A stretch of DNA of 64,000 bases, taken from assembly GCF_016584665.1 (NCBI RefSeq), contig NZ_BBJB01000090.1, positions 1 to 64,000 on the forward strand, given 5' to 3'. A program made the position numbers and the translations under genes. This document shows positions 34,289 to 63,595 of this stretch, piece after piece; position 1 is the stretch's first letter; the number at the start of each line of letters is the position of its first letter. Source of the DNA: Pseudanabaena sp. lw0831 (GTDB lineage Bacteria; Cyanobacteriota; Cyanobacteriia; Pseudanabaenales; Pseudanabaenaceae). The notes beneath the pieces are model-generated. The model was not told where the DNA came from, made no database searches, and saw only the letters and a list, made by a program, of their open reading frames with translations.

Positions 34289-34365
34289 AGCGATCACATT
34301 AACAATCCATCTCAATAAAGGTGATCGCTATTACTGTGAGTCGCGCTTTCTAGGCGATCTCATTG
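34289..34365. repeat. HIP1-bounded modular repeat R1
   Basis: Reads B module (ATTAACAATCCATCTCAATAAAGG), HIP-like GTGATCGC, A module (ATTACTGTGAGTCGCGCTTTC), GGCGATCTC. See the finding on this repeat family. Confidence 0.8.
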
Positions 34366-34392
34366 CAACGATGTCTTCTTAATGACCCTCGC

Positions 34393-34734
34393 TCATTTAT
34401 CAGCATGTACACCTAGTAGCAGAACCTTGGCATTGCCATTTGCCTTATATGTCGCGAACAACAAATAAGGACATCCGAACATAAAACCCAATAACAAGAA
34501 CAGAAAGCCGAATAGAAATCCCTTAGTGGTAAAGCCCTCTCGCCACATCACCCAAATCAAGAATAGACATAGAGCAATCAAAAGATCTGTGTTGAACTGC
34601 GATCGCCAATTAAGTTCTAATAAATCACCAAAATAGACTGCTGGCCAATTGATACCCATGCTCACGATGACATAAATTGATACGGAAAAAATTAGCACTG
34701 TTGCAGCAATTAAAAAAGCACGTAGTAAGGTCAT
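34393..34734 (-). CDS. Small integral membrane protein
   Basis: 113-aa protein with three hydrophobic helices: residues ~5-27 (AFLIAATVLIFSVSIYVIV), ~50-62 (LLIALCLFLIWVMW) and ~70-92 (GFLFGFLFLLLGFMFGCPYLLF). The arrangement and WREGFTTK loop recall DUF1475-like small membrane proteins, but the call is tentative. No function can be assigned. The next gene on the other strand is an MmyB-type regulator starting 57 nt away, which might control it. Confidence 0.55.
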   Translation of the reverse strand: MTLLRAFLIAATVLIFSVSIYVIVSMGINWPAVYFGDLLELNWRSQFNTDLLIALCLFLIWVMWREGFTTKGFLFGFLFLLLGFMFGCPYLLFATYKANGNAKVLLLGVHADK

Positions 34735-34791
34735 GTTGTTGCTCCTGTTAGCCGAATAGAGGGCTGACTTCGGGATGTCATTGCGATTATC

Positions 34792-35709
34792 ATGTCAAAG
34801 AGAGATAATCAAAGCAATTACCTCACAGGTAATCAAACTCATTTTCCCGAAAGATTTACCATGCAGCAGCGAGCGATCTCGTATCAACCAAATTCTTTTG
34901 GAACCATACTGAAGCTATGGCGCGATCGCCGTAACCTCAGTCAGCTTGAACTCGCACTGAGTAGTCAAGTTTCTCAACGTCACATCAGTTTTCTAGAATC
35001 GGGACGAGCAAAACCAAGTCAGGAGATGGTATTGCAATTGGCAATGGTTTTAGAAATTCCGCTCAGACAACAAAATCTAATGCTTAGTTCTGCTGGCTTT
35101 GCGCCAATTCATGCAGAAACTGATTTGTCGGCTCCTGAGATGGCCCCAGTTTGCAAAGCGATCGATTTTATGTTGCGTCAGCAAGATCCATATCCAGCGA
35201 TCGTCATCGATCGCTACTGGAATTTACTCCTCACCAATCAAGGGGCTGCCAGACTGCTTAATACCTTCATCGATCCTAACAAGTTGCAAGCTCTTTTTTG
35301 TGTTGATGGGAAAATCAATTTGATGCGAGTTGTTTTCGATCCACTGGGTCTACGTCCCTTTATTGCTAATTGGGAAGAAGTGGCTGGACATTTACTTCAG
35401 CGAACACACCGCGAGGCTAATTCATCAATTGAGAGCGAACAGTCTGCTTTGTTGTTTAACGAACTCATGAATTATCCTGATGTTTCCGAATTGTGGAATA
35501 ACTCAAGTCATTCTGCGCAACATACTTTGCTGCTTACTATGCACTTAAGGAAAAGCAATCTAAATTGGCAGTTTTTCTCAACGATCGCAACTCTTGGCAC
35601 TCCCTACGACATCACTCTTCAGGAAATTAGAATTGAATGTTTCTTTCCAGCAGATGCGGAGACTGAAAACTACTGGAGAAAGGAAAACCCAACGCAGGTG
35701 GGACTGTAG
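34792..35709 (+). CDS. XRE-family regulator with MmyB-like ligand domain
   Basis: 305-aa protein, with ATG 34861 as an alternative start. The HTH_XRE is at ~40-95 (LKLWRDRRNLSQLELAL, SQRHISFLESGRAKPSQEM). A C-terminal MmyB-like PAS domain is marked by YPAIVIDRYWNLLLTNQGAARLL and LTMHLRKSNLNWQFFSTIATLGTP. MmyB-type regulators are thought to sense fatty-acid-like ligands and commonly control adjacent short-chain dehydrogenases. Here an SDR gene follows convergently at 35764. The stop codon TAG is shared with the first bases of repeat R2. Confidence 0.85.
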   Translation: MSKRDNQSNYLTGNQTHFPERFTMQQRAISYQPNSFGTILKLWRDRRNLSQLELALSSQVSQRHISFLESGRAKPSQEMVLQLAMVLEIPLRQQNLMLSSAGFAPIHAETDLSAPEMAPVCKAIDFMLRQQDPYPAIVIDRYWNLLLTNQGAARLLNTFIDPNKLQALFCVDGKINLMRVVFDPLGLRPFIANWEEVAGHLLQRTHREANSSIESEQSALLFNELMNYPDVSELWNNSSHSAQHTLLLTMHLRKSNLNWQFFSTIATLGTPYDITLQEIRIECFFPADAETENYWRKENPTQVGL

Positions 35710-35757
35710 GCGATCTCAATTATTGTGAGGCGTGATTTCTAGGCGATCACATTAACT
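35707..35757. repeat. HIP1-bounded modular repeat R2
   Basis: TAGGCGATCTC, A-module variant (ATTATTGTGAGGCGTGATTTC), TAGGCGATCAC. Sits between two convergent genes and contributes the stop codon of the MmyB-type regulator. Confidence 0.75.
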
Positions 35758-35763
35758 TTTATT

Positions 35764-36537
35764 TCAAGAATTACGTCCCGCCATAACTCCACCATCAACA
35801 TCCCATACCGCACCTGTGACCCAAGATGTTTGATTAGAGAGTAGAAATACCACGGTTTCAGCGACATCAATTGGTAGACCCACTCGACCAATGGGATGAA
35901 AACCATTGAAGCCTTGTAAAGTTGAATGAATCTCGTCAGGCTTAATAAATGCGCCATAGATAGGCGTTTCCACCACGGCAGGGGCGACAGCATTTACGCG
36001 GATATTATATTGAGCTAGTTCCATTGCTAAATGTTGCGTAAGAGAATGTAGCCCCGCCTTCGCCATCGAATAAGCCGAAGATGGAGTAGCGGCGATCGCC
36101 TGATGTGCCCACATCGATCCAATATTGACAATAGCTCCACCCCCAGATTTAGTCGTATTTCCCGCCACTTTCTGCGTTGCAAAAAATGTACCGCGATTTA
36201 GATCTAGATAGCGATCGTAATCTTCACCACCATGATCTAAGAATGATTTTGGTGAAAACACTCCTGCCGAATTGACGAGATAGCGAACTTCAGGCAATTT
36301 GTCAGCAATGCGATCTGCAAGTTGATTAACCTGATGGCGATCGCTAAGATCGGATTGCCAAGTTTTAATATCCCCAAATTGGCTAAGAAAAGATGACGCT
36401 TCTTCAAGCTTAGAAACATTGCGTCCCACGATGGTTACGATTGCCCCTTGATTGAGAAGGATTTTGGTAACTTCTAGACCGATGCCGCTATTTCCACCGA
36501 TTACTAATGCTTGCTGATTCTTAAATTCCGAATACAT
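35764..36537 (-). CDS. Short-chain dehydrogenase/reductase
   Basis: 257-aa SDR from ATG 36537; the 51 codons upstream belong to the promoter region shared with the HxlR gene and are not used. NAD(P)-binding VIGGNSGIG is at the N-terminus, NSAG in the middle, and catalytic S...Y-S-M-A-K in NIGSMWAHQ...[10 protein letters not shown]. The C-terminus ends [16 protein letters not shown], typical for classical SDRs. Substrate unknown. It is divergent from an HxlR-type regulator 138 nt away, a common redox-responsive pairing. Confidence 0.88.
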
Positions 36538-36675
36538 AATAATTTCCGTTTGAGTTAATGAGAGCATAATAGAGATAATCAATAAAGATGAAAAGTAAGC
36601 ACTTTCGGGAAAGGTACGTACTTTTTGGTGCAAATTGAGTAGCAGCATTACTAATTTTTTTTTACCACGATTGAT

Positions 36676-36990
36676 ATGCCAACCACTCAAACTTCAGTTT
36701 CGGAAATGCTCGAATATATTGTTGGCTGCAAGTGGTCAATGCGGATACTAGGCTTAATTCAAGAAGGTGTCGATCGCCCTGGTGCTATTACGCGATCGCT
36801 AGATGGACTCACCACTAAGGTATTGAATGCTTGTTTACACAAAATGGTGGATTTTGACATTCTAGAGCGCATAGCATTCCCAGAAGTGCCACCAAGAGTA
36901 GAGTACAAATTTACGCAGTTTGGATTACTATTCCTTGAAATCTTGGATAAAGTAAGAGAACTCGAAAAAAAACGACATATATCTTCATAA
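36676..36990 (+). CDS. HxlR-family transcriptional regulator
   Basis: 104-aa winged-helix protein with HxlR features: the N-terminal Cys in [13 protein letters not shown] (C18, the position that in some members senses quinones or aldehydes), [21 protein letters not shown] as recognition helix region, and [14 protein letters not shown] as wing. Divergent from the SDR gene, which it probably controls. The gene end runs into repeat R3. Confidence 0.88.
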
Positions 36991-37034
36991 AAGCGATCGC
37001 AATTATTGTGAGTCATAATTTCTAGGTGATCGCT
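36991..37034. repeat. HIP1-bounded modular repeat R3, joined to repeat C
   Basis: AAGCGATCGC, A-module variant (ATTATTGTGAGTCATAATTTC), TAGGTGATCGC, directly continued by repeat C in reverse orientation. Confidence 0.75.
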
Positions 37035-37112
37035 TAGCTATTATTTGTCTTTGCGGCGAGACGTATCTTGAAAGGAATCGCCGATAAACTCTCTAAACTC
37101 AACAACGAAGTG
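37028..37112 (-). repeat. Dispersed repeat C, copy 4
   Basis: Reverse complement reads GTTGAGTTTAGAGAG, GCGATTCCTTTCAAGATACG, CTCGCCGCAAAGACAAATAA. Long form like copies 2 and 3, fused to module A as at 56.2 kb. Confidence 0.8.
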
Positions 37113-37175
37113 AACCATTTTTGAGAGCCTAATCTTGGATCGAAACAGACAACCTCAATAAGCGCATCGCTAAGG

Positions 37176-37895
37176 TTAGGCTGCTCCAAGACTGCTGCCA
37201 CCATCTACAAATAAGGTTTGCCCAGTAATATACGATGTATCTTCCGAAGCAAAGAACGCGATCGCCGCTGCAATCTCATCGGGTTGGGCAAGGCGTTGCA
37301 TGGGTACTCGTTGGAGAAACTGCTGTTCGGATGCACTGCCGACTGGGCTGTTGGCTCGAAAGAGTTCTGTCTCAGTAGGTCCTGGGGCGATCGCATTCAC
37401 TGTAATGCCAGTAGTTGCCAATTCACTAGCCCAAGTTCGGGTCATGCTGATCAGTCCGGCTTTTGCGGCGGCATAACTGGTGCGAAGTGGTAGCCCCACA
37501 ACCACCAAGCTGGAAATATTAATGATGCGACCATAATGACGTGCTTTCATAGCAGGCAGAAAAGCTTGAGTGAGTTGAATCGCAGGGCGCAGATTTAGGT
37601 CAATGATGGAGGCAAATTGAGTGATATCAACGTCCTCTAAAGATTCTGATCGACTGATCCCAACATTGTTAATCAGATGACTGACTGAATATTGACAGGC
37701 AACAATATCTGCAACTTGTTTTGTTGCTTCAGAATCTGCTAAATCTACTTCAAAAAACTCACCAGGAAACAGTTGATCGGGTTTACGCCGTGCGAGACCG
37801 ATTACCTCATGCCCCATTGCCTTCAGGCGCTTTGCTGTAGCAAAACCAATTCCCTTTGAGGCTCCAGTAATTACGGTTGTGTAGGTTTGTGACAT
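37176..37895 (-). CDS. FabG-like short-chain dehydrogenase/reductase
   Basis: 239-aa SDR. Cofactor motif VITGASKGIG (residues 8-17; the Arg pair ARRK after strand 2 favours NADP), NNVG in place of NNAG, catalytic INISSL and Y-A-A-A-K (SYAAAKAGLISM), C-terminal GQTLFVDGGSSL. It resembles 3-oxoacyl-ACP reductases and related small-molecule reductases; no specific substrate can be given. Followed on the same strand by a DUF606 transporter-like gene, transcribed upstream to downstream as DUF606 first. Confidence 0.88.
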   Translation of the reverse strand: MSQTYTTVITGASKGIGFATAKRLKAMGHEVIGLARRKPDQLFPGEFFEVDLADSEATKQVADIVACQYSVSHLINNVGISRSESLEDVDITQFASIIDLNLRPAIQLTQAFLPAMKARHYGRIINISSLVVVGLPLRTSYAAAKAGLISMTRTWASELATTGITVNAIAPGPTETELFRANSPVGSASEQQFLQRVPMQRLAQPDEIAAAIAFFASEDTSYITGQTLFVDGGSSLGAA

Positions 37896-37932
37896 TATTA
37901 ATCTCCATTAATCTTCTAATGTGTTTGGTTGT

Positions 37933-38379
37933 TTATTGAGTGGCAAGCACTACTCCAATGAGCAGTAAGATTGCACCGAATACTTTTTTTAGGGTGATGG
38001 GATCTTGAGGCGAGTCCAGAAGTCCAAAATGGCTAACTGCTAGTGCCATCAGAATTTGTCCTGCCACAAATAGAACGAAAAACCGTCCAGCGCCTAACCG
38101 AGGAATCAAAAATGTAGACCCAAAGACGAGAAAGGCACTGATAAAGCCACTCAGGTAAAGATAGCTAGGAACCTCTCGAAACCGAGAAACAGCGCTAAAA
38201 TTGCCCGTGAGTGAATAGAGTAAAAGCGTGGTAATTGCACCCAGCAGATAAAACGGAATATTTGCTAACAGGGCCGAGCCAACATATCTGGCGACAACTC
38301 CATTCATCGGCAAATAGACTGACGTAATCACACCCATGACGAAGGCGATTAGCCAAAACAGAAGGGATTGCATTGACAT
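37933..38379 (-). CDS. DMT-superfamily DUF606 (YdcZ) membrane protein
   Basis: 148-aa protein with five hydrophobic helices, including LLFWLIAFVMGVITSVYLPMNGVVARYVGSALLANIPFYLLG-type features (quoted in parts: FVMGVITSVYLPMNG, LLANIPFYLLGAI), then LSGFISAFLVFGSTFLIPRLG and KVFGAILLLIGVVLA. The half-size EamA-like fold functions as a dimer or as paired half transporters. Substrate unknown. It lies 37 nt upstream of the SDR gene, so the two are likely an operon. Confidence 0.8.
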   Translation of the reverse strand: MSMQSLLFWLIAFVMGVITSVYLPMNGVVARYVGSALLANIPFYLLGAITTLLLYSLTGNFSAVSRFREVPSYLYLSGFISAFLVFGSTFLIPRLGAGRFFVLFVAGQILMALAVSHFGLLDSPQDPITLKKVFGAILLLIGVVLATQ

Positions 38380-38439
38380 TGAGATACCCTCATAGAATTA
38401 GGGACGAGCAAATAAATAAAGTACCATTCCAGATTTTAG

Positions 38440-38475
38440 AGAATTGTTGGGCGGCTTCGCCGCCCCAACAATTCT
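38440..38475. terminator. Bidirectional hairpin
   Basis: AGAATTGTTGG-GCGGC paired with GCCGCCCCAACAATTCT around a TTC loop (one bulged base), between a gene end at 38513 (minus strand) and the start region at 38379. Confidence 0.7.
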
Positions 38476-38512
38476 GGTTTTATATTTGGTGCTTTATTAA
38501 ATCGCACAGCCC

Positions 38513-39607
38513 TTACCATGCTCTTTGATATTGTTTAGGATACTGGTGATGATCGACCTGTAATTCCTTAGCAGCGCGATGGGGCCAGTATGGATCGCGC
38601 AACAGCTCACGAGCCAGCAGCACGATATCGGCTTGACCGCTACGGATTATCTGATCGGCTTGTATGGGAGTGGTAATCATCCCCACAGCAGCAGTTGCGA
38701 TCCCTGTTTTCTGCCGAATGCGATCGCTAAACGGAACTTGATAACCCGATCCAGTCGGAATTTTAACGCTAGGAATCAGACCTCCCGTCGAACAATCCAC
38801 CAGATCAACGCCAGCATTTTTAAGAATTTGGCTCAGGGCAATACTTTGCTCTAAATCCCATCCCCCTTCTGCCCAGTCTGTGGCTGAAATTCTGACCCAG
38901 AGAGGTAGTTGGTCGGGAAGGATAGCTCGCACTGCTTGGACAATTTCGGTCAGCAGGCGAATGCGCCCTTCAAAACTATCGCCATAGCGGTCTGTGCGGT
39001 GGTTACTCAATGGCGACAGAAATTCGTGCAATAGATAACCGTGGGCAGCATGAATTTCGATCGCCTGAAAGCCTGCTTCAATACTTCTTTGCGCCGCTTG
39101 GATAAAGGATTGCTTAATTGATTCAATCCCTTCAAGTGTGAGCACGGTTGGGACTGGACTCTCGTCATTAAAGGCGATCGCACTTGGGGCTAAGGGTTGC
39201 CATCCTCCTTCAGCTTTGGTGAGCGGACTACCTCCAGCCCAAGGAGTAGCACTACTGGCTTTTCGCCCCGCATGAGCCAGTTGTATCCCTGCAACCGCAC
39301 CTGCTTCCTGAATCAGCTTGGCAATTTTGGCGAGCATCGGAATCTGTTCATCAGCCCAGATGCCCAAATCGCCAAGGGAGATTCTGCCCAGAGGCTCAAC
39401 TGCTGCCGCTTCTGTAAAGACTAGCCCTGCGCCTCCCACAGCACGACTGACTAAATGAACTAAATGCCAGTCACTCGCCAATCCATCTTGGCTAGAGTAT
39501 TGACACATGGGGGAGACCCCAATGCGATTGCGAAAGGTCACGCCTCGTTGTTGAAAAGAATCGAATAGAGCGTTCATAACTAAATTCTCTCCAAAAGGAA
39601 TATTCAT
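38513..39607 (-). CDS. Old yellow enzyme family NADH:flavin oxidoreductase (YqjM-like)
   Basis: 364-aa FMN-dependent ene-reductase. Features: NRIGVSPMCQYS with the Cys that tunes flavin potential in YqjM-type OYEs, QLAHAGRKAS, EIHAAHGYLLHEFLSP containing the H-x-x-x-H/G active-site region, and RISATDW, then VGMITTPIQADQIIRSGQAD for phosphate binding. It reduces activated C=C bonds and is often part of the oxidative or electrophile stress response. An internal ATG at 39577 is an alternative start. It is co-directional with the peroxiredoxin-like gene upstream of it (18 nt gap). Confidence 0.92.
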   Translation of the reverse strand: MNIPFGENLVMNALFDSFQQRGVTFRNRIGVSPMCQYSSQDGLASDWHLVHLVSRAVGGAGLVFTEAAAVEPLGRISLGDLGIWADEQIPMLAKIAKLIQEAGAVAGIQLAHAGRKASSATPWAGGSPLTKAEGGWQPLAPSAIAFNDESPVPTVLTLEGIESIKQSFIQAAQRSIEAGFQAIEIHAAHGYLLHEFLSPLSNHRTDRYGDSFEGRIRLLTEIVQAVRAILPDQLPLWVRISATDWAEGGWDLEQSIALSQILKNAGVDLVDCSTGGLIPSVKIPTGSGYQVPFSDRIRQKTGIATAAVGMITTPIQADQIIRSGQADIVLLARELLRDPYWPHRAAKELQVDHHQYPKQYQRAW

Positions 39608-39625
39608 GGTCAGGGAAACTTTAAA

Positions 39626-40288
39626 TCAATAACTCAACGCTAGTGTTTTAGCGACGATCGCTGTCAAGGCTTCACTCGGCTCTAGACGTTTGCGATAATC
39701 AGTATCAATGTGAGCAAGCAAAATCTCACCATTGGGAGCGATCGCAAATGTAGCAGGAATTGGTAGTTGCCAGTCTTCAGTGTCATTGATATGAGGTAAA
39801 GCATGACCGAATTGGCTATAGATACGCTTTAGTTCAACTGGCAATTGGAAGGCAATTTTGTAAGCTTGAGCAACTTTCGATTCCCGATCGCTCAGGACAT
39901 CAAAGTCCAGTTGATTTTTCTCAGCGGTACTCAGAGATGCATCTGGAGTTTGGGGGGAGATGGCGATCAGACTGGCTCCGACAGCTTGGATTTGGGGCAG
40001 AATTCGCTGATAGGCCCGCAGTTCCAGATTGCAGTAAGGACACCATCCACCCCGATAAAAGGTCAGAATCACAGCACCTTGTTGGAGGCGATCGCTCAGT
40101 CGAATATTTTTTCCAAGGGCATTCGGCAACTCAAAATCAGGGGCGAGATCGCCAATTTGTAGGAGCGGCTTGGAGGCATAGTCTTGGGTGAGTTGTAAGG
40201 TTGCTTGTTCCATCGCTGTAGCAATCTCTGCGGGAACCTTGGTTAAAAATTCAGCGCGGAACTCATCAAGAGCAGTTTTAAGGGGCAC
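39626..40288 (-). CDS. AhpC/TSA-type peroxiredoxin-like protein
   Basis: 220-aa thioredoxin-fold protein. An N-terminal helical extension is followed by IGDLAPDFELPNALG and the active site GGWCPYCNLELRAYQ, with C-P-Y-C in place of the usual single peroxidatic Cys loop, typical of the peroxiredoxin-like DUF899/AhpC-related group. It is expected to reduce peroxides or disulfides in the cytosol. Predicted operon with the downstream old yellow enzyme gene, giving a plausible electrophile/peroxide-response pair. Confidence 0.85.
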   Translation of the reverse strand: MPLKTALDEFRAEFLTKVPAEIATAMEQATLQLTQDYASKPLLQIGDLAPDFELPNALGKNIRLSDRLQQGAVILTFYRGGWCPYCNLELRAYQRILPQIQAVGASLIAISPQTPDASLSTAEKNQLDFDVLSDRESKVAQAYKIAFQLPVELKRIYSQFGHALPHINDTEDWQLPIPATFAIAPNGEILLAHIDTDYRKRLEPSEALTAIVAKTLALSY

Positions 40289-40383
40289 AGCGTTAATTCC
40301 TTTGAGAGAGATGGGTGAGATTGAGGGAAGTGATTTCCCTCAATCTAGAAATAATGGCGGGTAAAAAAGCATTCATTAATGTC

Positions 40384-41121
40384 TTATTGAGGCATCCAAC
40401 CCGCAAACATTTTTTCAACGGCTTTCAATGGTTCGGCGATCGCCGAAAATGCACTCTGAGAAACTGGATCGGGATAGACATCCTCAAGCCCTGCTTCAAC
40501 TGCTTGTAAGGTTGTCTTCGCAACTGCGATCGGTGTAGCTTTATCGATCGACATCCCTTCAGTCATGGCAGTATCTACGGGACCTGGAAAGACCCCCACC
40601 ACCTGTGTACCTTGATTTGCCAATTCAGCCCGAATGTCTTGGGTTAAAGAATTAAGGGCAGCTTTAGAAGCACTGTAGGAACCAAAAACAGGGGCACTTG
40701 CAATGGATACCACGGACAGCATATTGACGATCGCTCCGCCACTATGACGTTGCAAAATCGGAGCAAAAGCCCGCACCATCGAAAGCGTACCAAAGTAGTT
40801 TGTATTCATCTCCCACTGAGCCGTTTCCACGCTGTTAGGGGCAAATAACCCGCCAGAGCCAATGACACCCGCGTTGTTAATAAGCAATGTGACATCTTGG
40901 GCAGTTTGGGCAGCCGCATTCACTTGTTCAATATTGGTCACATCCAAAGCGATGGGGATAATGAGATCGGGTGCGATCGCAACGACTTCATTCAACGTAT
41001 CAAGGCTTCGAGCCGCAGCATAAATGCGGCGAACCCCAGCTTGAACTAGTGCTTCCACAAAAGCTTTGCCAATACCGCGATTAGCACCTGTAACAAAAGC
41101 AACGGATTCTTGAATGTTCAT
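40384..41121 (-). CDS. Short-chain dehydrogenase, paralogue 1
   Basis: 245-aa SDR from ATG 41121. NAD(P) motif VTGANRGIGKA, LLINNAGV, catalytic S and Y in NMLSVVSIAS...SYSASKAAL, and a PGPVDTAM loop. It is a close paralogue of the 245-aa protein at 45763-46500; both start MNIQ and end FAGWMPQ. Each has a divergent LysR gene next to it, also paralogous, so the whole regulator-enzyme pair was duplicated. Probably a carbonyl reductase under LysR control; substrate unknown. Confidence 0.9.
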   Translation of the reverse strand: MNIQESVAFVTGANRGIGKAFVEALVQAGVRRIYAAARSLDTLNEVVAIAPDLIIPIALDVTNIEQVNAAAQTAQDVTLLINNAGVIGSGGLFAPNSVETAQWEMNTNYFGTLSMVRAFAPILQRHSGGAIVNMLSVVSIASAPVFGSYSASKAALNSLTQDIRAELANQGTQVVGVFPGPVDTAMTEGMSIDKATPIAVAKTTLQAVEAGLEDVYPDPVSQSAFSAIAEPLKAVEKMFAGWMPQ

Positions 41122-41245
41122 AACAATCTCCTGAGTTAACAATGAAAACTTGTAACGAAAAGCCTTGAGCCGTTTAAAGTTTGACTGATTTGCTTTCCAT
41201 GTCTCTTATCATGACTTATTTCAATCTGTTTGAGAAGACGACAAA

Positions 41246-42208
41246 ATGGAATATGATTTATTCGTATTTAGAATAAATTTAACTATGGATCGCCTCGACT
41301 GCATACAAAGTTTTGTTCGGGTCGTTGAAACAGGAAGCTTTTCTGCTGTCGCCCGCGAACGTGACACCACCCAGCCCACCATCAGTAAGCAAATTGCCGC
41401 ACTGGAAGACTACTTGGATGTGCAGCTATTAACCCGCTCTACCCGTAAGCTACAGTTGACGCAAGAGGGAGAACGATTTTTTGAGCATTGCCAAGGAGTA
41501 TTGGAGGCAGCTGCCGAAGCCGAAGCCAGTGTTGGGCAACGTCAAAAACCCATCGGAACCTTGCGGGTAAGCTGCCCTGTGGCGTTTGGACAGATTCAGG
41601 TGATGCCCTATGTGAAAGGTTTTCTAGCGCGTTACCCGAATATTCGGTTAGATCTGAGCCTGAGCGATCGCTTTGTTGATCTTGTCGAAGATGGAACAGA
41701 TATTGCCATTAGGATCGGGCAGGTGAACGATCCAGCACTAATCGTCCACCGCATTGGACTCACCCGCCGAGTCACGGTGGCGGCGAAATCCTATTTCTGC
41801 GATCGTTCAGAACCACAAACTCCAGACGAATTAGTTGAGCATAACTGTATTGTGTATACTCGCTTGGCAACCGGCAACGAGTGGCACTTTCAATGTCCGA
41901 CAGGTGGCACAACTCAGGTCGTTGTCAGAGGCAATCTACAGGTTGATAATTCTTCAGCCATTCGGGAAGCCGTACTGTCGGGTGTAGGGATTGCAGTTTG
42001 CCCCGTTTGGCTATTTGGTGAACTGCTCACATCTAACTGTCTCAGCGTGATTCTCAAGGATTACCAACCCATCCCGTTGCCGATTCATGCAGTCTATCGT
42101 CGCGGGAGATTTATTCCCGCAAAAGTGCGTTGTTTTATCGAATATCTCACAAATGAATTCAAGCTCGATCCGTGGGTATCAGACTATGGCATTAAACAGT
42201 CAGCCTAA
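41246..42208 (+). CDS. LysR-family regulator, paralogue 1
   Basis: 320-aa LTTR. The HTH is in MDRLDCIQSFVRVVETGSFS with TQPTISKQIAALEDYL; the effector-binding domain covers the remainder (LRVSCPVAFG, LSDRFVDLVEDGTDIAIRIG). Codons before MDRLD (ATG 41285) are also conserved in the paralogue at 46676, so either start is possible; ATG 41285 is the more typical LTTR N-terminus. It is divergent from the SDR at 40384 and is its likely regulator. About three quarters identical to paralogue 2 by eye. Confidence 0.9.
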   Translation: MEYDLFVFRINLTMDRLDCIQSFVRVVETGSFSAVARERDTTQPTISKQIAALEDYLDVQLLTRSTRKLQLTQEGERFFEHCQGVLEAAAEAEASVGQRQKPIGTLRVSCPVAFGQIQVMPYVKGFLARYPNIRLDLSLSDRFVDLVEDGTDIAIRIGQVNDPALIVHRIGLTRRVTVAAKSYFCDRSEPQTPDELVEHNCIVYTRLATGNEWHFQCPTGGTTQVVVRGNLQVDNSSAIREAVLSGVGIAVCPVWLFGELLTSNCLSVILKDYQPIPLPIHAVYRRGRFIPAKVRCFIEYLTNEFKLDPWVSDYGIKQSA

Positions 42209-42323
42209 CGGCACAGTTGAGCTGACGCAGATAATACCCCAATACTAACCGATAATCTTTCGCGTTCGTCTCCAACGCAGTGTTCTGCTGCTGGCAACTA
42301 CGATCCTTATCTATTCTTCATTC

Positions 42324-42803: not shown

Positions 42804-42960
42804 ACAGAATTTCGTTAAAAGCTAAATTGTATCGTGGTGGCTGGGAGGAGATGACCGATAAGGTTTCAACTATGCCCACGACCTATAACCGAAGCGGCAT
42901 AACTATGTATTAGACGGAAACATTCATGTATTATTTAGTTATATAAACCTCATCCACTTA

Positions 42961-43058: not shown

Positions 43059-43155
43059 TTATACAAAAATAAGCAAGTTGAGCCAGAACCTCGCAAATTT
43101 TTAGATCTGATCCCAGACTTAGCTAGAGGGATTATTTTACTCTTGGGCTTTGTTT

Positions 43156-55500: not shown

Positions 55501-55540
55501 CAGGTTTCATTTTGCCCACAAATGAAAATTATAATTTGCG

Positions 55541-56173: not shown

Positions 56174-56181
56174 CCATCACA

Positions 56182-56222
56182 GCGATCGCTCTTACTGTGA
56201 GTCGTGATTTCTAGGCGATCGC
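56182..56222. repeat. HIP1-bounded modular repeat R10 joined to repeat C
   Basis: GCGATCGC, A (CTTACTGTGAGTCGTGATTT), CTAGGCGATCGC, continued by repeat C in reverse. Confidence 0.8.
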
Positions 56223-56268
56223 TTAATAATTATTTGTCTTTGCGGCGGGACACATTCTGAAAGAAATC
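56215..56268 (-). repeat. Dispersed repeat C, copy 5
   Basis: Reverse complement: GATTTCTTTCAGAATGTG then CCCGCCGCAAAGACAAATAA. Short form, same junction with module A as copy 4. Confidence 0.75.
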
Positions 56269-56277
56269 CCTTCTGCG

Positions 56278-56706
56278 CTACACAGTCCAATCTTCGGTTA
56301 TTAAACTCGGAACTTTACTGAAGTCACCAGTATTTCGGGTAAGTAATACCAAGTTGTTAGAAATGGCGATCGCTGCAATTCGCAAGTCCATTGTAGACAC
56401 ACGAACTTTCTGATTTCGCATCTCATCAAATATGGCGATCGCCTTAGCATCAAATGGTAGAACTGGAGCCTTTGCAAAACTGTTGAGAGTTTCTAACAAC
56501 AGCGCATATCCACGAGCCATATCTGTATTTGTTTGGGCGCGATTGATGAAGCTATGAGCGCCAATTACTTGCTCATGAAAACTAATAACTGATAAAGCAA
56601 AGTCAGAGAGCGAATGTTGTGACATCCGCAAAGTTAATCGAATAAACTCTGAACTGGAACGGCGCTGAAGAAAACTGATGTGGTCGGTATCGAGCAAATA
56701 TTTCAC
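56278..56706 (-). CDS. VapC-like PIN-domain toxin
   Basis: 142-aa PIN ribonuclease. Acidic active-site residues: D6 and D8 in YLLDTDHIS, Glu in SFHEQVIGA, Asp in STMDLRIAAIAI and NTGDF near the end. It is typical of VapC-type toxins that cut tRNA or rRNA. The upstream gene (56709-56921), 2 nt away, encodes the presumed antitoxin. Confidence 0.87.
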   Translation of the reverse strand: MKYLLDTDHISFLQRRSSSEFIRLTLRMSQHSLSDFALSVISFHEQVIGAHSFINRAQTNTDMARGYALLLETLNSFAKAPVLPFDAKAIAIFDEMRNQKVRVSTMDLRIAAIAISNNLVLLTRNTGDFSKVPSLITEDWTV

Positions 56707-56708
56707 GA

Positions 56709-56921
56709 TTATTTGTCAGTGTCATCAATAGGTTTGTCAGACTGCCGAAAAGCACGTCCATATTCTAGAGATTCAAGAAAAGCTGAGTCGTCAGAGATTG
56801 AGCCTACGAGACTATCGAGCCAATTGTCAGAGTTAGGATTACTTTCAAATTTATGTTGAAGATCGAATACTACTTGTTCAAGGTTTATCAAGCGTTGCTC
56901 AAATGTTGCTGTGTCTAGCAT
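56709..56921 (-). CDS. Presumed antitoxin of the VapC-like toxin
   Basis: 70-aa protein beginning with a helical stretch FEQRLINLEQVVFDLQHKF that resembles a coiled coil, followed by an acidic region (SISDDSAFLESLEYGRAF) and a basic/acidic end. No AbrB or RHH DNA-binding fold is apparent. Called antitoxin by position (2 nt before the toxin) and by the coiled-coil plus flexible-tail layout seen in some cyanobacterial PIN partners. Confidence 0.65.
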   Translation of the reverse strand: MLDTATFEQRLINLEQVVFDLQHKFESNPNSDNWLDSLVGSISDDSAFLESLEYGRAFRQSDKPIDDTDK

Positions 56922-57064
56922 GGCTGCTCCTAGATTGAAAGTTATTACTCAGTAGCGGAAGAACTTACTCTAGTCTAACTAAAAATTTGTATCTGTGTTC
57001 AACTCAGTATCGGTATAAACAAAAATAAGGTACGTCGCACTTCATTAATGCAGCAGACAAGATC

Positions 57065-57136
57065 GGCGATCGCATCAGCAATCTATCTCCTAAAGGCGAT
57101 CGCTATTACTGAGAGTCGTGATTTTTAGGCGATCGC
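57065..57136. repeat. HIP1-bounded modular repeat R11 (B-A)
   Basis: GGCGATCGC, B (CAATCTATCTCCTAAAGG), CGATCGC, A (ATTACTGAGAGTCGTGATTT), TTAGGCGATCGC. Lies in the 56922-57206 spacer. Confidence 0.88.
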
Positions 57137-57206
57137 TCTTCATGAATATTCTAATTCTATCGGTTTTGGTTTACCGTTAATAAACCTAGTTAGGTTAATA
57201 ATTACC

Positions 57207-58505
57207 TTACCTAGGAGTTTTCTGATTATCTTTCCATGCATTAGCTTTAATATCTTCAATAGCTTCCACAAAACTCTGTGTTCCTATTTCGTAGCAACGG
57301 GTAAAACTTTCGTTTCGATTTTCATTGAATACAAATAAGCGCCATAACTTCACACGATAACCCTTAGAATACTGACCACAAGCAAAAATATTTTTAGAAT
57401 GCCGCTCAAATGCCCAAATACTCGACTTAGAAGACTCTTCTATATACATTGCTGGTCGGGGATGATCATCTGCAAAATCTGCACCAATAAAGCTTGAACA
57501 ATTCGGAATACCTTTAGGACACTGATGTGTAATTGGACTAGGCTTATCCATTACATTGAGACTTGGTAGAATTTCCTCCCAGTCTTCAATGATAAGTGAG
57601 CCGCAAACGCCTTGTGCAGTCATATTCATAAACTCTCGATACACATCAATAGATGATTCTCTGTGTCCAGCAGCTTCAGCAGCAGATTGGGAAAGATGTA
57701 ACACTATATCTCTTTCAAAAACACCAAATGAGGTTTCAATATTAGGCTCGTTTGCATAAGCAATATACCTAATAACACTCTTATTACCCACAGATTCTAT
57801 TTTGCCTTTAATTAACCCTTGATCTAGTATACAAATTGAGTCAAGAAAACTAGATAGTGCAACTGGATAAGCCCGAAGATGTTGATTTCTGAAAATTCCA
57901 TATCTAAATAATATAGGTATTGTTGATTGGAAGAGATAGAATCTTTCTAAATATTGTAAAAAATATTTCATCTGAGTCTTAGATTTCGACTTAAGTTTAG
58001 ATGAAAAAGATAATATAGCGGTGTATGGTCTAAAAAGCTGACGTTCAGGAGAATATAATTCATATAAATCTTCAAATTTGTCTAAGTCTCCCCACAATTT
58101 GTCATCATCTAAAGTCTTAGTTATTTCGATGATGACTTTTACCGACTCTGGGACGACAATCACAAAATCATCGGCACGAAATAGGGGTGGGAAAGTACCT
58201 GCATCCCAAATTATGATGTCAAACTGTCGAGATACTTTTCTAGTAACTTTTGCTTCTTTATCAACTTGCCTATTAATTTCAAGTGTAGATATAAATCCAG
58301 TAGATATTTCAAAACGTCGAGGGATTCTTCGCCGAAGGTAAGATCGAACTGCATACTCTAAATTTTGTCCTTCTGATGGACAATGTACCCCATCCATCCA
58401 AAATGAAAGAGTTCGAGCCATCTCACGTAGCTCATTTGTTTGTTGGGAGGCAGAATCCCTTATATCTTGGATGTTAATATCTCGTTCATTCATAATTACA
58501 ATCAC
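57207..58505 (-). CDS. DUF6602 nuclease-like protein
   Basis: 432-aa protein with the DUF6602 pattern: GQNLEYAVRSYLRRRIPRRF, a TGFIST strand, RQFDIIIWDAGTFPPLF with the conserved Asp, and VPESVKVIIEITKTL, in which the usual E-x-K of the PD-(D/E)XK-like fold appears as E-I-T-K. If that Lys position matters, catalysis may be altered. A C-terminal part of ~250 residues has no match I know (HQCPKGIPNCSSFIGADF, WRLFVFNENRNESF). Start ATG 58493 (MNERDIN) is equally likely. Two co-directional DUF4145 genes lie upstream (29-42 nt gaps), forming a probable three-gene operon. Confidence 0.72.
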   Translation of the reverse strand: MIVIMNERDINIQDIRDSASQQTNELREMARTLSFWMDGVHCPSEGQNLEYAVRSYLRRRIPRRFEISTGFISTLEINRQVDKEAKVTRKVSRQFDIIIWDAGTFPPLFRADDFVIVVPESVKVIIEITKTLDDDKLWGDLDKFEDLYELYSPERQLFRPYTAILSFSSKLKSKSKTQMKYFLQYLERFYLFQSTIPILFRYGIFRNQHLRAYPVALSSFLDSICILDQGLIKGKIESVGNKSVIRYIAYANEPNIETSFGVFERDIVLHLSQSAAEAAGHRESSIDVYREFMNMTAQGVCGSLIIEDWEEILPSLNVMDKPSPITHQCPKGIPNCSSFIGADFADDHPRPAMYIEESSKSSIWAFERHSKNIFACGQYSKGYRVKLWRLFVFNENRNESFTRCYEIGTQSFVEAIEDIKANAWKDNQKTPR

Positions 58506-58534
58506 ATAACCATAGAAAGGTAAACTTATTTATT

Positions 58535-59233
58535 TCATTCAATGTTGTCTTGTTTATTTAACTTTTTTTCTTTTAAAAGATTTAGACTTTGTTCTGCTTT
58601 TTTAGCAAGATATGGAGCATTGTATATATACTCTAAAATGGCTTTGCACAAGTCATCTAATATAGGAATCTCATCACTAGTCAATTCTCCTAGATCAGCA
58701 TGAGCGCCATAGTTTCTTAACTGCCTTAGACTATGAGCTACATTTACTAACTTCTCTGGAATTTCACCTTTATCGGCTAAGCATTTTAGTTTTTTATTTA
58801 AAGTATCCCCTGATGCTTTACGATCTTCGCAGATCATATCTAATATCCGTCCTAATAGAACTGCATACGCATTAGCATCAATAAATCTCACCTTAATTGC
58901 TATGTCATATGCTTTTTGAATCTGATTAGGTAATCCAGATAGTTTGTGTGGTTCTGATGGATAAAAGATTTCTTCTTCGTAGCATTCTAAATATTCAGCA
59001 TCAAAATACCTCCAGTAAGTTACCTCCTTACAAACTAAACAGAGCAACAATTTATGGTGGTAGCCTTCTTTTGCATAAATGCTCCCATTGCAGTAGTCAT
59101 AATTCGCATCATCTGGATCGTCATAAGTATGCTCTGTGGATAGGTAGTATTCAGCTACAATTTTCATAGGTGCGCGGTTTCCACAATGTCCACATTGTAT
59201 AAACCCGTGAGTTAGATTCTTTTCATTAGCCAT
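58535..59233 (-). CDS. DUF4145 protein with zinc ribbon and HEPN-like motif, copy A
   Basis: 232-aa protein. N-terminal C14-G-H-C17 and C65-L-V-C68 are two knuckles of a zinc ribbon. The C-terminal helical DUF4145 domain (NQIQKAYDIAIKVRFIDANAYAVLLGRILDMICEDR, quoted in parts; VLLGRILDMICED is the hallmark) ends with R170-x-L-x-N-x-G-A-H178, the HEPN-like signature R-x-L-x-N-x-G-A-H. DUF4145 proteins are frequent in defence islands. The second copy upstream has the same design but low identity, so the two may form a heterodimer. Confidence 0.8.
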   Translation of the reverse strand: MANEKNLTHGFIQCGHCGNRAPMKIVAEYYLSTEHTYDDPDDANYDYCNGSIYAKEGYHHKLLLCLVCKEVTYWRYFDAEYLECYEEEIFYPSEPHKLSGLPNQIQKAYDIAIKVRFIDANAYAVLLGRILDMICEDRKASGDTLNKKLKCLADKGEIPEKLVNVAHSLRQLRNYGAHADLGELTSDEIPILDDLCKAILEYIYNAPYLAKKAEQSLNLLKEKKLNKQDNIE

Positions 59234-59275
59234 AAAATTAATCTTATAGTATGTTATGTCTTAGACTATTATTTG

Positions 59276-59995
59276 CTACTCTGATGTCAAAATTTTCTCT
59301 TTCAGTTTGATCAACTCCTCTTCCGCCTCCTGCTGTCGGTACTTATCAACATATAGACGCTCAACAACATAATTTACGAGCATTAATAGACTGTTTGCAT
59401 CTTCAACTTTTACCTGCTTAGCAAATGTTAGGTGATCCGAATGTGCTCCCTCATTACCAAGATCTCTAATCCCTTGAATAATATCTACTAAATCTTCTGA
59501 AATTTTTTCCTGTTCAAATAATTGAGTAAGTCTTTCTTTAAGATTGATAAAGTTACTCTTTCCTTTTTTATTTACCCCCTCGGAAGGAATCTTAAAATCG
59601 TTGCAAATCTCCTCTAATACTGCTCTACATAAAATAAAGCTTGCACGTGAAGACTTAGATAAAACTGATTGTGCTTGATAAGTTACTTCGGCAATATATC
59701 GAGGAACTGCATAATGAAGTTGCTTGCGAGGAGCATGTAAAACTGTTCGACGATAATCTCGATAGAATTCACTCTCCATGTTATCTCTATTCATTTCATC
59801 TTCTTCATCATTCCCTAGAGTGGAATAACATATGATAGTAGCCTTACTGCAAGATGGACAAGTAAAAATCTCAAAAATTTCGATTGTGTAGTAAGGAGTT
59901 TCATCCTCTCCACTTTGATGTCGAAATGTAGTTTCAGACTTCATTAAATTTCCACAATTGCAAAATTCTCTTCCTGCCTCAAGTTCGTATAGCAT
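59276..59995 (-). CDS. DUF4145 protein with zinc ribbon and HEPN-like motif, copy B
   Basis: 239-aa protein, first gene of the three-gene set. Zinc-ligand candidates are C12-N-C14 and C46-P-S-C49. The DUF4145 domain contains AVPRYIAEVTYQAQSVL, ASFILCRAVLEEICNDF and the motif R177-x-L-x-N-x-G-A-H185. Its C-terminus is a charged helix (YRQQEAEEELIKLKEKI) that could form a coiled coil. The resemblance to copy A is structural rather than by close identity, consistent with an old duplication or independent recruitment. Confidence 0.8.
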   Translation of the reverse strand: MLYELEAGREFCNCGNLMKSETTFRHQSGEDETPYYTIEIFEIFTCPSCSKATIICYSTLGNDEEDEMNRDNMESEFYRDYRRTVLHAPRKQLHYAVPRYIAEVTYQAQSVLSKSSRASFILCRAVLEEICNDFKIPSEGVNKKGKSNFINLKERLTQLFEQEKISEDLVDIIQGIRDLGNEGAHSDHLTFAKQVKVEDANSLLMLVNYVVERLYVDKYRQQEAEEELIKLKEKILTSE

Positions 59996-60061
59996 TTGTG
60001 TTCATTTCTTTCTTTGTTAGGACAAATTATCTCAGATCATAATCTAAGTCAAATATGCTCA

Positions 60062-60168
60062 CATCAACATCTATCTTCATAAAGGCGATCGCTATTACCG
60101 TGAGTCGTGATTTTGGGGCGATCGCTTCAATGATATATTTTCTATAGGTTTGCTGAAGGCGATCGCTG
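60062..60168. repeat. HIP1-bounded modular repeat R12 (B-A-B)
   Basis: Partial B (CAACATCTATCTTCATAAAGG), CGATCGC, A (ATTACCGTGAGTCGTGATTT), TGGGGCGATCGC, long B variant (ATATTTTCTATAGGTTTGC + TGAAGG), CGATCGC. Confidence 0.85.
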
Positions 60169-60229
60169 TTTGATTTTTGTAAAGTGGCGATCGTGTTAAT
60201 CTATAAAATATAACTTAAGGAATAAAGCT

Positions 60230-60421
60230 ATGACTGCGGTAGTACAAGAGCTTCTAAACACCTTTGACAACCTAACGTACTCAGAAAGATTAGATTTATT
60301 GTCAGAAATTCTGAGGCGTACTGTTTATTTAGACTTTGAACCATTATCTGACGAAGAATTAACGCTAAATGCCGAGGATATCTTCCTAACACTAGATGAA
60401 GAAGAATTAGCTCATGAATAG
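60230..60421 (+). CDS. Antitoxin of a MazF-like pair
   Basis: 63-aa acidic protein: VVQELLNTFDNLTYSERLDLLSEILRR, a helical addiction-module-like segment, then an acidic tail LSDEELTLNAEDIFLTLDEEE. The stop overlaps the toxin start by 8 nt. It resembles cyanobacterial antitoxins that pair with MazF or RelE toxins; DNA-binding ability is not evident. Confidence 0.78.
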   Translation: MTAVVQELLNTFDNLTYSERLDLLSEILRRTVYLDFEPLSDEELTLNAEDIFLTLDEEELAHE

Positions 60422-60749
60422 CCCCTATCGTGGAGAAGTTTGGCTAGTCGATCTTGGCTATGTCGCCAAAGTCAGACCATGTTTAGTTGTTAGCATCCCA
60501 GCACTAGATAGGGATCGAGCATTAGTAACCCTAGTTCCACATACAACAAGTTTACGCGATTCCAGATTTGAAGTGAAAGTGAAAGCTAAATTTTTACGAG
60601 AAGGCGCTTTTGACATGCAAAATCTCATCACAATCCCTCATGCCAAACTTTTACGCAAACTGGGAGATCTAACATCAGAGCAAATGGAAGACTTAGAAGA
60701 TGTCTTACTCGTATGGTTGGGATTTGAGTCTGAAGAAGATGAAGACTAA
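60414..60749 (+). CDS. MazF/PemK-family toxin
   Basis: 111-aa endoribonuclease-type toxin: YRGEVWLVDLGYVAKVRPCLVVS is the family start with catalytic-region R in VRPCLVV, then VTLVPHTTSLRDSRFEV and AFDMQNLITIPHAKLLRKLGDL. The family cleaves mRNA at short sequence motifs. A standard two-gene operon with the antitoxin at 60230. Followed directly by repeat R13. Confidence 0.92.
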   Translation: MNSPYRGEVWLVDLGYVAKVRPCLVVSIPALDRDRALVTLVPHTTSLRDSRFEVKVKAKFLREGAFDMQNLITIPHAKLLRKLGDLTSEQMEDLEDVLLVWLGFESEEDED

Positions 60750-60770
60750 GCATAGAAAACTTTGAGACAG

Positions 60771-60853
60771 GCGATCGCTATTACTGTGAGTTGTGATTTT
60801 TAGGCGATCGCCTCAATTATCTATCTGTTAAAGGGTTTGTTGTAGGCGATCGC
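60771..60853. repeat. HIP1-bounded modular repeat R13 (A-B)
   Basis: GCGATCGC, A (ATTACTGTGAGTTGTGATTT), TTAGGCGATCGC, long B (TTATCTATCTGTTAAAGGG + TTTGTTGTAGG), CGATCGC. Confidence 0.88.
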
Positions 60854-60949
60854 TCTAAAATGTTGTCATAGCAAAGGATTGCAAAGTTTCGCCATCTTTA
60901 TTGCTCACTCCATTCTTCCAGAGTTCGTTTTGATACAGCTTAGCCCATT

Positions 60950-62464
60950 CTATACAAGCCCTAATGACGATGCAACCAAATGCCCACAGGCAAAACCCGA
61001 AAAGGCAACGGCATTTAAACCCTGTCCTGGGAAAGTACTATCACCGACACAATATAAATCGGGAATAGAAGTACGATTAAAAGGCATTCCCAAAAGACCT
61101 AAAGGCTTACCCGCAGGAATTGGTCCATAGGTTCCATCCGCACGACCGAGGAAGCGTCGATGGCTGCGGGGTGTACCGATTTCTTGATAGTCGAGACAAT
61201 CTTCTAGTTTAGGGAAAATCGCTAACAGGCGATCGCATAGCTTCTCTGCCGCCGCATTTTTCTTCTGTTCATATTCCGAAGCAGATAAACCTTCCCATTC
61301 ACGCATCCAGCTAGGCGTGAAGGTATGCACAATATGATAGCCTTCAGGCGCAAGGGAGCGATCGAGCAGCGTGGGAATCGACACAAAAATCGTACCTTGC
61401 TCTTTCTGCATATCGTTCCAATCTTCCAACAAAATATGGTGACAAGCTGCATCATCAGGAATTGCGGAAGCTTCAACGCCAAGATGTAAGCTGAGGAAAC
61501 TAGGGGATTTTTGATAACGTGATTGCCAACCTTTTTCACCACTGGGCAGAGGTTCATCCTTGAGCAAGTTCCCAAAGGTATCCCAGCGAGTGGCATTGGA
61601 AACGACTTTCTTGGCATAGAGAACTTCGCCATTCGCCAGTTTGACCCCGATCGCACCTTTACCCGACTTTGCTTTGGGAATAATCTGAGTAACCCTTGCC
61701 CCATAGCGAATTTCGCCACCCGCTTTGTCCAAACCTTCCGCTAGCTTTTCAGCAATCTTACCCACGCCACCAACTGGGTAGTTAATTCCTCCATAATGGC
61801 GATCGCTAAAGACCATCCCTGCATTAATTGCTGGCGTGCGATCGGCGGGAACCACTGACCAGCAATAGCATTCCATATCGATGAATTGCAACAACTTAGG
61901 ATCGCGAATATATTTCTTGGCGATATCACCTGCATTTTGAGGTAGATAGGCGGCTAAACCCAAACAAGCAAAGGGATTCTGAAAAAACACCCGCATCAAG
62001 TAGCGCCATTCTTCGAGGGACAGCAACTCGATCGCATTTAAGCAATTAAAAATCTTCCAACATTCATCGTAAAATTTACGAATCCCCTCACGCTCATGGG
62101 GAAAGCGATCGCCTAATTCTTTAATAAACTGCTCATAATCACGATGCACCTCAATTTCCAGATTATTCGGCAAATGATAATGGATCTGCACAGGGTCGGG
62201 AATCGTCTCCATTTTCATATTCACCGCCGCCAGTGCACGGGTGAGGAGATTTGTCGTACCGCGATCGCCAAAACCAAAGATCATCGATGCGCCCACATCA
62301 AAGCGGTAACCATTGCGCTCAAAATAGCCACCACTCCCACCCGCAATCAAATAGCGCTCTAGGACAATTACACTTGCCCCCTTCGCCGCCAACTGCGTCG
62401 CCGTGACCAGTCCGCCCAATCCTGAGCCAATTACAATTACATCCGCATCAAGTGTTTGCGCCAT
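60950..62464 (-). CDS. crtH: Carotenoid cis-trans isomerase CrtH (CrtISO)
   Basis: 504-aa FAD-dependent enzyme of the CrtI/CrtISO family: dinucleotide-binding [18 protein letters not shown] at ~9-26, [56 protein letters not shown] and C-terminal [20 protein letters not shown]. These motifs distinguish CrtH from phytoene desaturases. It converts poly-cis lycopene to all-trans lycopene in thylakoid or envelope membranes. Full length. Divergent from accA with a 119-nt gap; both are housekeeping genes, bounding the accessory region on the right. Confidence 0.94.
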
Positions 62465-62583
62465 TACATTTCTTAGTCAAGACCTTCATTTACTATAGCG
62501 CCATCATGAGTAACTCATCTCGCTATAACTAGCCCTTTGTCTGCTAATCTGAGAATTGGTATCTACTATACAAAAATTGCATC

Positions 62584-63549
62584 ATGGCCGATCGCCAAAT
62601 CCTGCTTGACTTTGAAAAGCCTATCGTTGAACTAGAAACCCGCATCGCTCAAATCCGCGAACTCGCGAATGACAACGATGTGGATATGGTTGAGCAGATT
62701 CACCTTTTAGAGCAACGAGCCGAGCTTTTGCGGCGTGAGATTTTTTCGGGACTAGGTGCGATGCAACGGATGCAGATCGCAAGGCATCCCCGTCGTCCTA
62801 GTACGCTTGACTATGTGCAAGCGATTACCGATGAGTGGATGGAGCTACATGGCGATCGCAGAGGTAATGACGACCCTGCATTAGTGGGTGGTATCGCCCG
62901 CATCAATGATCGCCCTGTGGTAATTTTGGGGCATCAAAAGGGGCGTGACACCAAGGACAACATGACCCGCAACTTTGGTATGGCTTCTCCTGGGGGATAT
63001 CGCAAAGCAGCGCGTCTGATGGATCATGCTAATCGGTTTAAATTGCCGATTATTACTCTGATTGATACGCCTGGGGCATATCCTGGAGTGTCGGCAGAAG
63101 AGCAAGGACAAGGCGAGGCGATCGCGGCAAATTTACGACAAATGTTTGGGTTAGGCGTGCCGATTATTTGCACGGTCATTGGTGAAGGCGGATCTGGTGG
63201 AGCCTTGGGGATCGGCATTGGCGATCACATTATGATGTTTGAAAACTCGGTTTATACAGTAGCAACGCCTGAGGCTTGTGCGGCGATTTTGTGGCGCGAC
63301 TCGGCAAAGGCTGGCAAGGCTGCCGAAGCTTTAAAAATTACGGCTCCCGATCTTAAGCGTCTAGGCATTGTCGATTATGTGATTGATGAACCATTGGGTG
63401 GGGCGCATCGATTGCCATTAAAGGCTGCTGAAAACCTGAAAGCAGCGATCGTTGAAAATCTTGATCACTTAAGTAAATTACCAGTAGAAGATTTACAAGA
63501 AATGCGTTATCAAAAATTCCGCAAGATCGGCGTTTTTCTGGAATCGTGA
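62584..63549 (+). CDS. accA: Acetyl-CoA carboxylase carboxyltransferase subunit alpha
   Basis: 321-aa enzyme subunit for malonyl-CoA synthesis, the first committed step of fatty acid synthesis. Features: an N-terminal helical hairpin ([17 protein letters not shown]), [47 protein letters not shown], the oxyanion-hole regions [20 protein letters not shown] and [16 protein letters not shown], and [12 protein letters not shown]. Acts with AccB, AccC and AccD, which are not in the window. The ATG start at 62584 fits the family. Confidence 0.97.
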
Positions 63550-63556
63550 AGTTTGA

Positions 63557-63595
63557 GGCGATCGCACCAATAATCTCTACAAAAGGCGATCTCGA
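63557..63595. repeat. HIP1-bounded modular repeat R14 (short B)
   Basis: GGCGATCGC, B fragment (ACCAATAATCTCTACAAAAGG), CGATCTC. The rightmost copy seen. Confidence 0.65.

Follow-up and report, generated by a model that had tools for sequence, protein, structure and literature searches.

Short repeats joined by HIP1 octamers as putative joints of exchanged gene-cassette arrays in Pseudanabaena and other cyanobacteria

In integron cassette arrays and in clusters of attC sites lacking integron integrases (CALINs), repeated sites of the same orientation at gene 3′ ends bound genes, the cargo includes acetyltransferases, toxin–antitoxin systems and regulators, neighbours are reassorted and cassettes are shared across species. 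Xer-dependent pdif modules similarly carry small genes, often toxin–antitoxin genes, between short recombination sites. Here we describe an arrangement that resembles both in a stretch of 64,000 nucleotides from Pseudanabaena sp. lw0831 (the window), which comprises bases 1–64,000, nearly the whole, of a 64,196-bp contig (NZ_BBJB01000090.1, C90) in a genome of 5.26 Mb and 118 contigs. In the window, two paired short repeats, A and B, are joined by highly iterated palindrome 1 (HIP1), the cyanobacterial octamer GCGATCGC. Sequence comparisons indicate that these elements are probably the joints of a gene-cassette array that is reshuffled among Pseudanabaena genomes and passed between cyanobacterial orders. 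The A/B arrays are, as integron arrays are, same-orientation arrays of exchanged genes with acetyltransferase, toxin–antitoxin and regulator cargo, and the gene cassettes that the joints bound, which are exchanged between genomes, are a larger finding than the joints alone.

The A/B arrays differ from each of the systems closest to them. Unlike integrons, they have neither attC core motifs nor a linked integron integrase (IntI), and their joint is HIP1. Integron cassettes are single promoterless genes, whereas A/B cassettes are often whole transcription units; attC stays with its own cassette and has a fixed crossover, whereas A is inherited with neither cassette. Unlike pdif sites, A/B show no dif-like paired arms by eye and their unit orientation does not alternate. 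The small dispersed repeats (SDRs) of Nostoc are said to measure 21–27 nt, beside which A has 25 nt, the short form of B 22 nt and the long form 33–34 nt. One of them, SDR5, resembles A/B as a tiny repeat associated with HIP1 and is described as inserted precisely within the octamer, between bases 3 and 4 (Elhai 2008, as cited in PMC4390886). A/B sit between complete HIP1s, alternate, are locked in orientation and bound exchanged segments; the same picture of complete HIP1s on both sides would arise from a 33-nt unit that starts with ATCGC and ends with GCG. Repetitive extragenic palindromes and their doublets (REP/REPIN; PMC3116915) are also short intergenic repeats of many copies, but A/B lack a palindromic hairpin and form arrays rather than dispersed copies. 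HIP1-associated recombination has been reported from plasmids and cloned sequences (Akiyama 1998 and Robinson 1997, as cited in PMC4390886) with joints at GCGATCGC / GGCGATCGCC like those found here, and natural gene-cassette arrays are not among these reports to the extent of the literature consulted. An incomplete search of the literature gave no description of the A/B repeats, and the core sequence occurred in none of the papers on bacteria that it covered.

The original prediction placed two alternating cores at fourteen loci of the window, and these loci are real, far above shuffled sequence and all on the + strand. At up to three mismatches, core A has 12 matches in the window, every one of them + and within 34,333–60,802 (none in shuffles), and core B has seven, also + (shuffle mean 0.03). 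A matrix scan of the window yields 28 A/B units, again all +, of which 27 lie at 34,296–60,810 and one, weak and B-like, at 29,629. The list of loci was complete within the contig and falls short only through the contig end at 64,196. All four predicted orders (A-B, B-A, A-B-A and B-A-B) are present at their places, together with single A and single B units. HIP1 itself is found 132 times in the window against 1.03 expected, an excess of about 130-fold along its entire length; the claim of more than chance HIP1 density nevertheless holds, as the octamers on both sides of A and B are complete or near-complete and stand at fixed spacing.

Comparisons beyond the window draw on 119 loci chosen for carrying the element (many genomes, 1.79 Mb, 499 A and 367 B); the genomes are drafts, and scripted gene calls take the longest open reading frame (ORF). 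Among the segments that recur between HIP1s, 366 are of type A, 263 of type B and only 9 of the next family, so that no other family is comparable. Core A is exactly 25 nt long in 322 of the 366, and the longer form of B carries a TTTGCTGAAGG extension. Independent occurrence of A and B would have refuted the predicted family and is not what is seen: the two alternate in 424 of 441 close neighbours (A-A or B-B in 17), and all units of any one array lie on the same strand. The cores had also been described as conserved and their joints as variable. The joints are in fact no more variable, with per-column conservation of 78–96% in the CGATCG centre flanking A and 46–99% in the columns of A. The A-B period is 63 or 74 bp, near six and seven helical turns. 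In all arrays this period and the HIP1-to-HIP1 spacings of 30, 33 and 41–42 bp approximate whole helical turns, as if one protein contacted the HIP1s on a single face of the helix.

Homology between genomes is bounded at the blocks. Of the ends of between-genome homologies of at least 300 bp, 30% fall in blocks compared with 3.2% when positions are shifted, about nine times as many. A homology end is present in 82% of element-bearing gaps and in 29% of element-free intergenic gaps, and at equal gap length element-bearing gaps have 3.4- to 4.6-fold more ends per kb. Left and right segments reassort: when blocks are compared in pairs, only the left segment is shared in 310, only the right in 295 and both in 9. 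Whole units of about 820 bp that start and finish in elements are approximately 91% identical between P. biceps O153 and seven Nostocaceae, in which a gene of about 640 bp (213 aa) is common to all while its neighbours mostly differ. Orientation is fixed as well as phase, with neighbouring blocks in the same orientation in 280 cases and opposite in 8. In 281 of 354 cases the gene on the 3′ side points towards the block, with its end about 36–54 bp away (medians of two classes), and recurrent genes keep a nearly constant orientation relative to the element (for example 11/11, 9/9, 8/8 and 7/7). Cassettes are mostly 0.5–4 kb long and carry from one to several genes, in many cases an entire divergent pair; their cargo includes GNAT acetyltransferases, short-chain dehydrogenases, TetR, LysR and AraC regulators, methyltransferases, Uma2 proteins, ParE-type toxins and some defence-type proteins.

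Neighbours switch at HIP1. In a likelihood model applied to flanks at least 93% identical, the change-over falls at the HIP1 adjoining the shared cassette with a weight of 0.70–0.78 where the left cassette is shared and 0.63–0.77 where the right is, figures that are weighted by cassette family (with the strict cut-off, 14 and 18 families) because pairs within a family are not independent. Since the switch maps to the HIP1 beside the shared cassette, A is inherited mostly with neither neighbour, while the type of the first unit stays with the left cassette (0.91, compared with 0.52 by chance). A is not simply hypermutable, given that blocks retain 95–98% identity in recent pairs with both flanks in common. 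In homologues of cassette ends that lack A/B, homology stops, per base, some two to three times as often at HIP1 or immediately beyond it as at the positions nearby. In ten junction readings, two of which are shifted duplicates, A/B are absent and a single HIP1-like octamer links two known cassette ends. One gene is truncated at a HIP1 in Nostoc LEGE 12450 and WHI, where its sequence passes into A; its intact homologue in Nostoc FACHB-892 has ACGATCGC exactly at the cut point and reads on through it. Together with the bounded homology and the reassortment of neighbours, these switches strongly support one of the natures originally proposed for the element, a recombination product with pieces joined at HIP1.

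In the source genome, about 45 A and 40 B units make up some ten clusters, with one orientation per cluster. Of 26 Pseudanabaena genomes sampled (source included), 24 carry A, at up to 59 copies, and both genomes without it are incomplete. Outside the genus its distribution is sporadic, in distant cyanobacteria: of 291 genomes sampled from the cyanobacterial class, 35 contain A, and exact matches are found in Nostoc, Anabaena, Microcystis, Planktothrix, Tychonema, Spirulina, Snowella and Microcoleus, mostly in small clusters. Plasmids of Pseudanabaena and Planktothrix also carry A, and none of 50,697 phage records does. Replication-strand bias is a doubtful cause of the shared orientation: one genome (G020) switches element orientation within 20 kb, and another (G024) keeps a single orientation at four widely spaced places. 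The similarity of A copies is about 0.81 within Pseudanabaena genomes and the same between them (approximately 19% divergence between copies), and homogenisation of A within genomes is thus not seen.

With moderate confidence, we favour HIP1-jointed, orientation-locked cassette arrays that are exchanged mainly by host recombination. Cassettes would be bounded by HIP1-A-HIP1-B-HIP1 blocks in a single orientation, usually with the gene 3′ of a block reading towards it, and would be gained, lost and reshuffled at the blocks within Pseudanabaena and between cyanobacterial orders. The repeated A/B units may serve as direct-repeat homology for RecA-type recombination, which can excise circles or swap segments while keeping orientation and A/B phase. 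HIP1-anchored joining may occasionally found new junctions, whether through illegitimate recombination or through HIP1 site-specific recombination of the kind described for Synechococcus PCC 7002 (cited by Elhai 2015, PMC4390886). Several points weigh against this reading. RecA recombination over 40–100 bp at about 19% divergence would be inefficient, and some genomes have only few units, so that resident homology may be lacking. With a flat prior the likelihood model puts 0.40–0.43 at the HIP1 that borders the shared cassette and spreads the rest over A and the flank. Inside arrays alone the excess of homology ends is smaller (8.8 compared with 5.5 per kb), and the enrichment is partly ascertained because most loci were fetched as element-bearing. 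HIP1 is palindromic and cannot by itself set orientation. Isolated HIP1s are, moreover, tied to breakpoints by a mere 1.5-fold enrichment, equal in genic and intergenic positions; HIP1 alone is therefore insufficient and is ruled out as the breakpoint.

A dedicated site-specific recombinase that recognises the asymmetric A (or A-B) and cuts at the adjoining HIP1, an integron-like system with a new site, is a tentative alternative to host recombination. The fixed lengths of A and B, the 63- and 74-bp periods, the strict phase, the uniform orientation, the junction switches at HIP1 and a cargo typical of integron cassettes (GNAT, toxin–antitoxin and regulator genes) would all fit it. Against it, no recombinase family is prominent among the 25 commonest Pfam families of 139 cassette proteins, serine recombinases (PF00239) were absent at the threshold used from the source genome, G004, G008, G014 and G017, and no phage-type integrase (PF00589) lies beside arrays at the positions compared in the eight genomes scanned. 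G008, which has the most elements (59 A), encodes only two tyrosine recombinases, both unlinked and of types seen in most sampled genomes, and the inheritance of A with neither neighbour is unlike that of a cassette-borne site. It is doubtful, though possible, that cyanobacteria possess a second, integron-independent class of cassette platform with dedicated machinery whose site is HIP1 plus an asymmetric A/B core; if so, the overabundant HIP1 would be the joint of horizontally exchanged cassettes. That A/B are ordinary attC sites moved by the IntI of the genus is highly improbable, even though array anatomy and cargo are like those of chromosomal integrons and 13 of 26 Pseudanabaena genomes, among them the source, have an integron integrase scoring above the curated cut-off. 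Both attC core motifs (RYYYAAC ... GTTRRRY) occur in only 5 of 395 blocks, and their density is lower in blocks (1.29 per kb) than in all loci (1.81 per kb). The integrase gene intI is never beside an array in the places compared and is missing at E ≤ 1e−30 from the array-rich genomes G008, G017, G004 and G001 (28–59 A), whereas G023 has two intI and one A, so that intI is not correlated with arrays across the genus. The element also has no fixed crossover inside it, and an attC or integron site is rejected on motif, linkage, inheritance and covariation.

Two further readings treat the cassettes as secondary. It is unlikely that A and B are repeats of the Nostoc SDR type, inserting into intergenic HIP1 sites and hitch-hiking with genes. 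The precise insertion of SDR5 within HIP1 and the directed cutting at HIP1 discussed in the same source (Elhai 2015, PMC4390886) are in line with such insertion, as are the 22–34-nt length and HIP1 flanks of A and B and the occurrence of some cassette junctions both with and without A/B, but random insertion fails on the 280:8 orientation, the strict alternation and the clustering in about ten regions, and leaves the reassortment of neighbours at blocks unexplained. Very unlikely, in our view, is a transcribed 3′-end structure (a terminator or processing site) under selection, at which cassettes break since 3′ ends are safe. Blocks lie directly after stop codons, downstream genes read towards them and block RNA folds with z-scores of −1.6 to −2.9; against this, compensatory change, an Rfam match at curated thresholds and a T-run are all absent, and element-free gaps of equal length have three to four times fewer breakpoints. 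Beyond HIP1 itself, no inverted repeat is conserved in A and B, variants of HIP1 are compensated in the partner HIP1 in only 12 of 278 cases, and the highest mutual information is between local neighbouring columns with no covariation of arms. An E-value search of Rfam gave sub-threshold matches only, outside blocks. A conserved hairpin or Rfam RNA is rejected on these grounds, and the original suggestions of a palindromic element and of a processed RNA are not borne out.

Integron-like gene exchange without attC or a linked integrase would thus extend across cyanobacterial orders, carrying defence-type, toxin–antitoxin and metabolic genes. For HIP1, an octamer of open function since 1995, the arrays would offer a natural context for direct tests of HIP1-linked recombination, in which it can be asked whether exchange depends on HIP1, on A/B, on RecA or on another enzyme.

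Within the window, all blocks are on the + strand. A degenerate B-like remnant (29,629–29,658) lies outside the main array, which opens with a B-A block (34,290–34,361) between convergent genes for a TetR-type regulator (+) and a 113-aa ORF (−). The cassette formed by the 113-aa ORF (−) and an HTH/MLTR_LBD regulator (+) (34,362–35,706) is followed by an A block (35,707–35,750), and the upstream + gene stops at 35,709, inside the first HIP1 of this block. After a cassette of a short-chain dehydrogenase (−) and an HxlR regulator (+) (35,751–36,991) comes an A block (36,992–37,034) that continues into a C module (TTAGCTATTATTTGTCTTTGCGGCG...), and then one or more cassettes (37,035–43,155) with two short-chain dehydrogenases, a YdcZ exporter, an FMN oxidoreductase, an AhpC/TSA protein, a LysR regulator and a SnoaL protein. 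Three small cassettes, each a single gene on the − strand, are those of a Uma2-family gene (43,254–43,850), a RelE/ParE-type toxin gene (43,984–44,724) and a chlorite-dismutase-like gene (44,837–45,625); they are bounded by a B-A-B block with a weak last B (43,156–43,253), a degenerate 22-nt module followed by A-B-A, all joined by HIP1 (43,851–43,983), a further B-A-B block (44,725–44,836) and a single B with a TTTGCTGATGG extension (45,626–45,672).

A short-chain dehydrogenase, a LysR regulator, an alpha/beta hydrolase and a TetR regulator make up the next cassette or cassettes (45,673–49,542), up to an A-B-A block (49,543–49,650) whose first A has no upstream HIP1 and in which a + gene ends at 49,548. 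Then follow a cassette with DUF2721, an AhpC/TSA protein and LysR (49,651–52,588), a B-A-B block (52,589–52,711), a cassette with a fatty-acid hydroxylase, a histidine kinase and a response regulator (52,712–56,181), and an A block continuing into the C module (56,182–56,222). A PIN-domain gene (56,223–57,065, −), a B-A block (57,066–57,136), a cassette of DUF6602 and two DUF4145 genes (57,137–60,056, −), a (weak B)-A-B block (60,057–60,166), a PemK/MazF-type toxin gene (60,167–60,770, +) and an A-B block (60,771–60,853) lead to a last segment (60,854–63,556) with an FAD amine oxidoreductase (−) and accA (+). As accA is a housekeeping gene, not every bounded segment is accessory. Past accA, with 600 bp left to the end of the contig, stands a degenerate B (63,557–63,595; 19.8 bits). 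A divergent pair of short-chain dehydrogenase and LysR genes is duplicated (40,384–42,208 and 45,763–47,641; 67–77% identical, 5.4 kb apart).

Further repeats and genes are of note. The C module (TTAATAATTATTTGTCTTTGCGGCGGGACG...) is a second recurrent intergenic sequence, joined by HIP1 and common to several genera; in the window it lies at 28,848–28,931 (−), 29,846–29,929 (−), 36,986–37,079 (+) and 56,175–56,268 (+), and beside element blocks its orientation matches that of the block in 12 of 12 cases. Its isolated copies are too few for it to serve as a control repeat. It is also found upstream of intI in locus L096 (about 2435–2470), which holds the full-length integron integrase of the source genome (C55:21211–22152; L096 1208–2194; TIGR02249, 450 bits). 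This integrase adjoins core genes (by eye, cobW-like and HupE-like), and no cassette array is evident there; a C-terminal fragment of a second integron integrase lies near a contig end (C101:30967–31215). A further short module bounded by HIP1, ACTTAACCTACAAGATC, follows A in Nostoc, Microcoleus, Tychonema and USR001 (L113, about 4235–4262; L132, about 250–275; L150; L167), and locus L034 (C43) carries tandem HIP1-rich sequence, GCGATCGCTGTTTGATTTGGGGAAATAGGCGATCGGGTTT..., in many imperfect copies.

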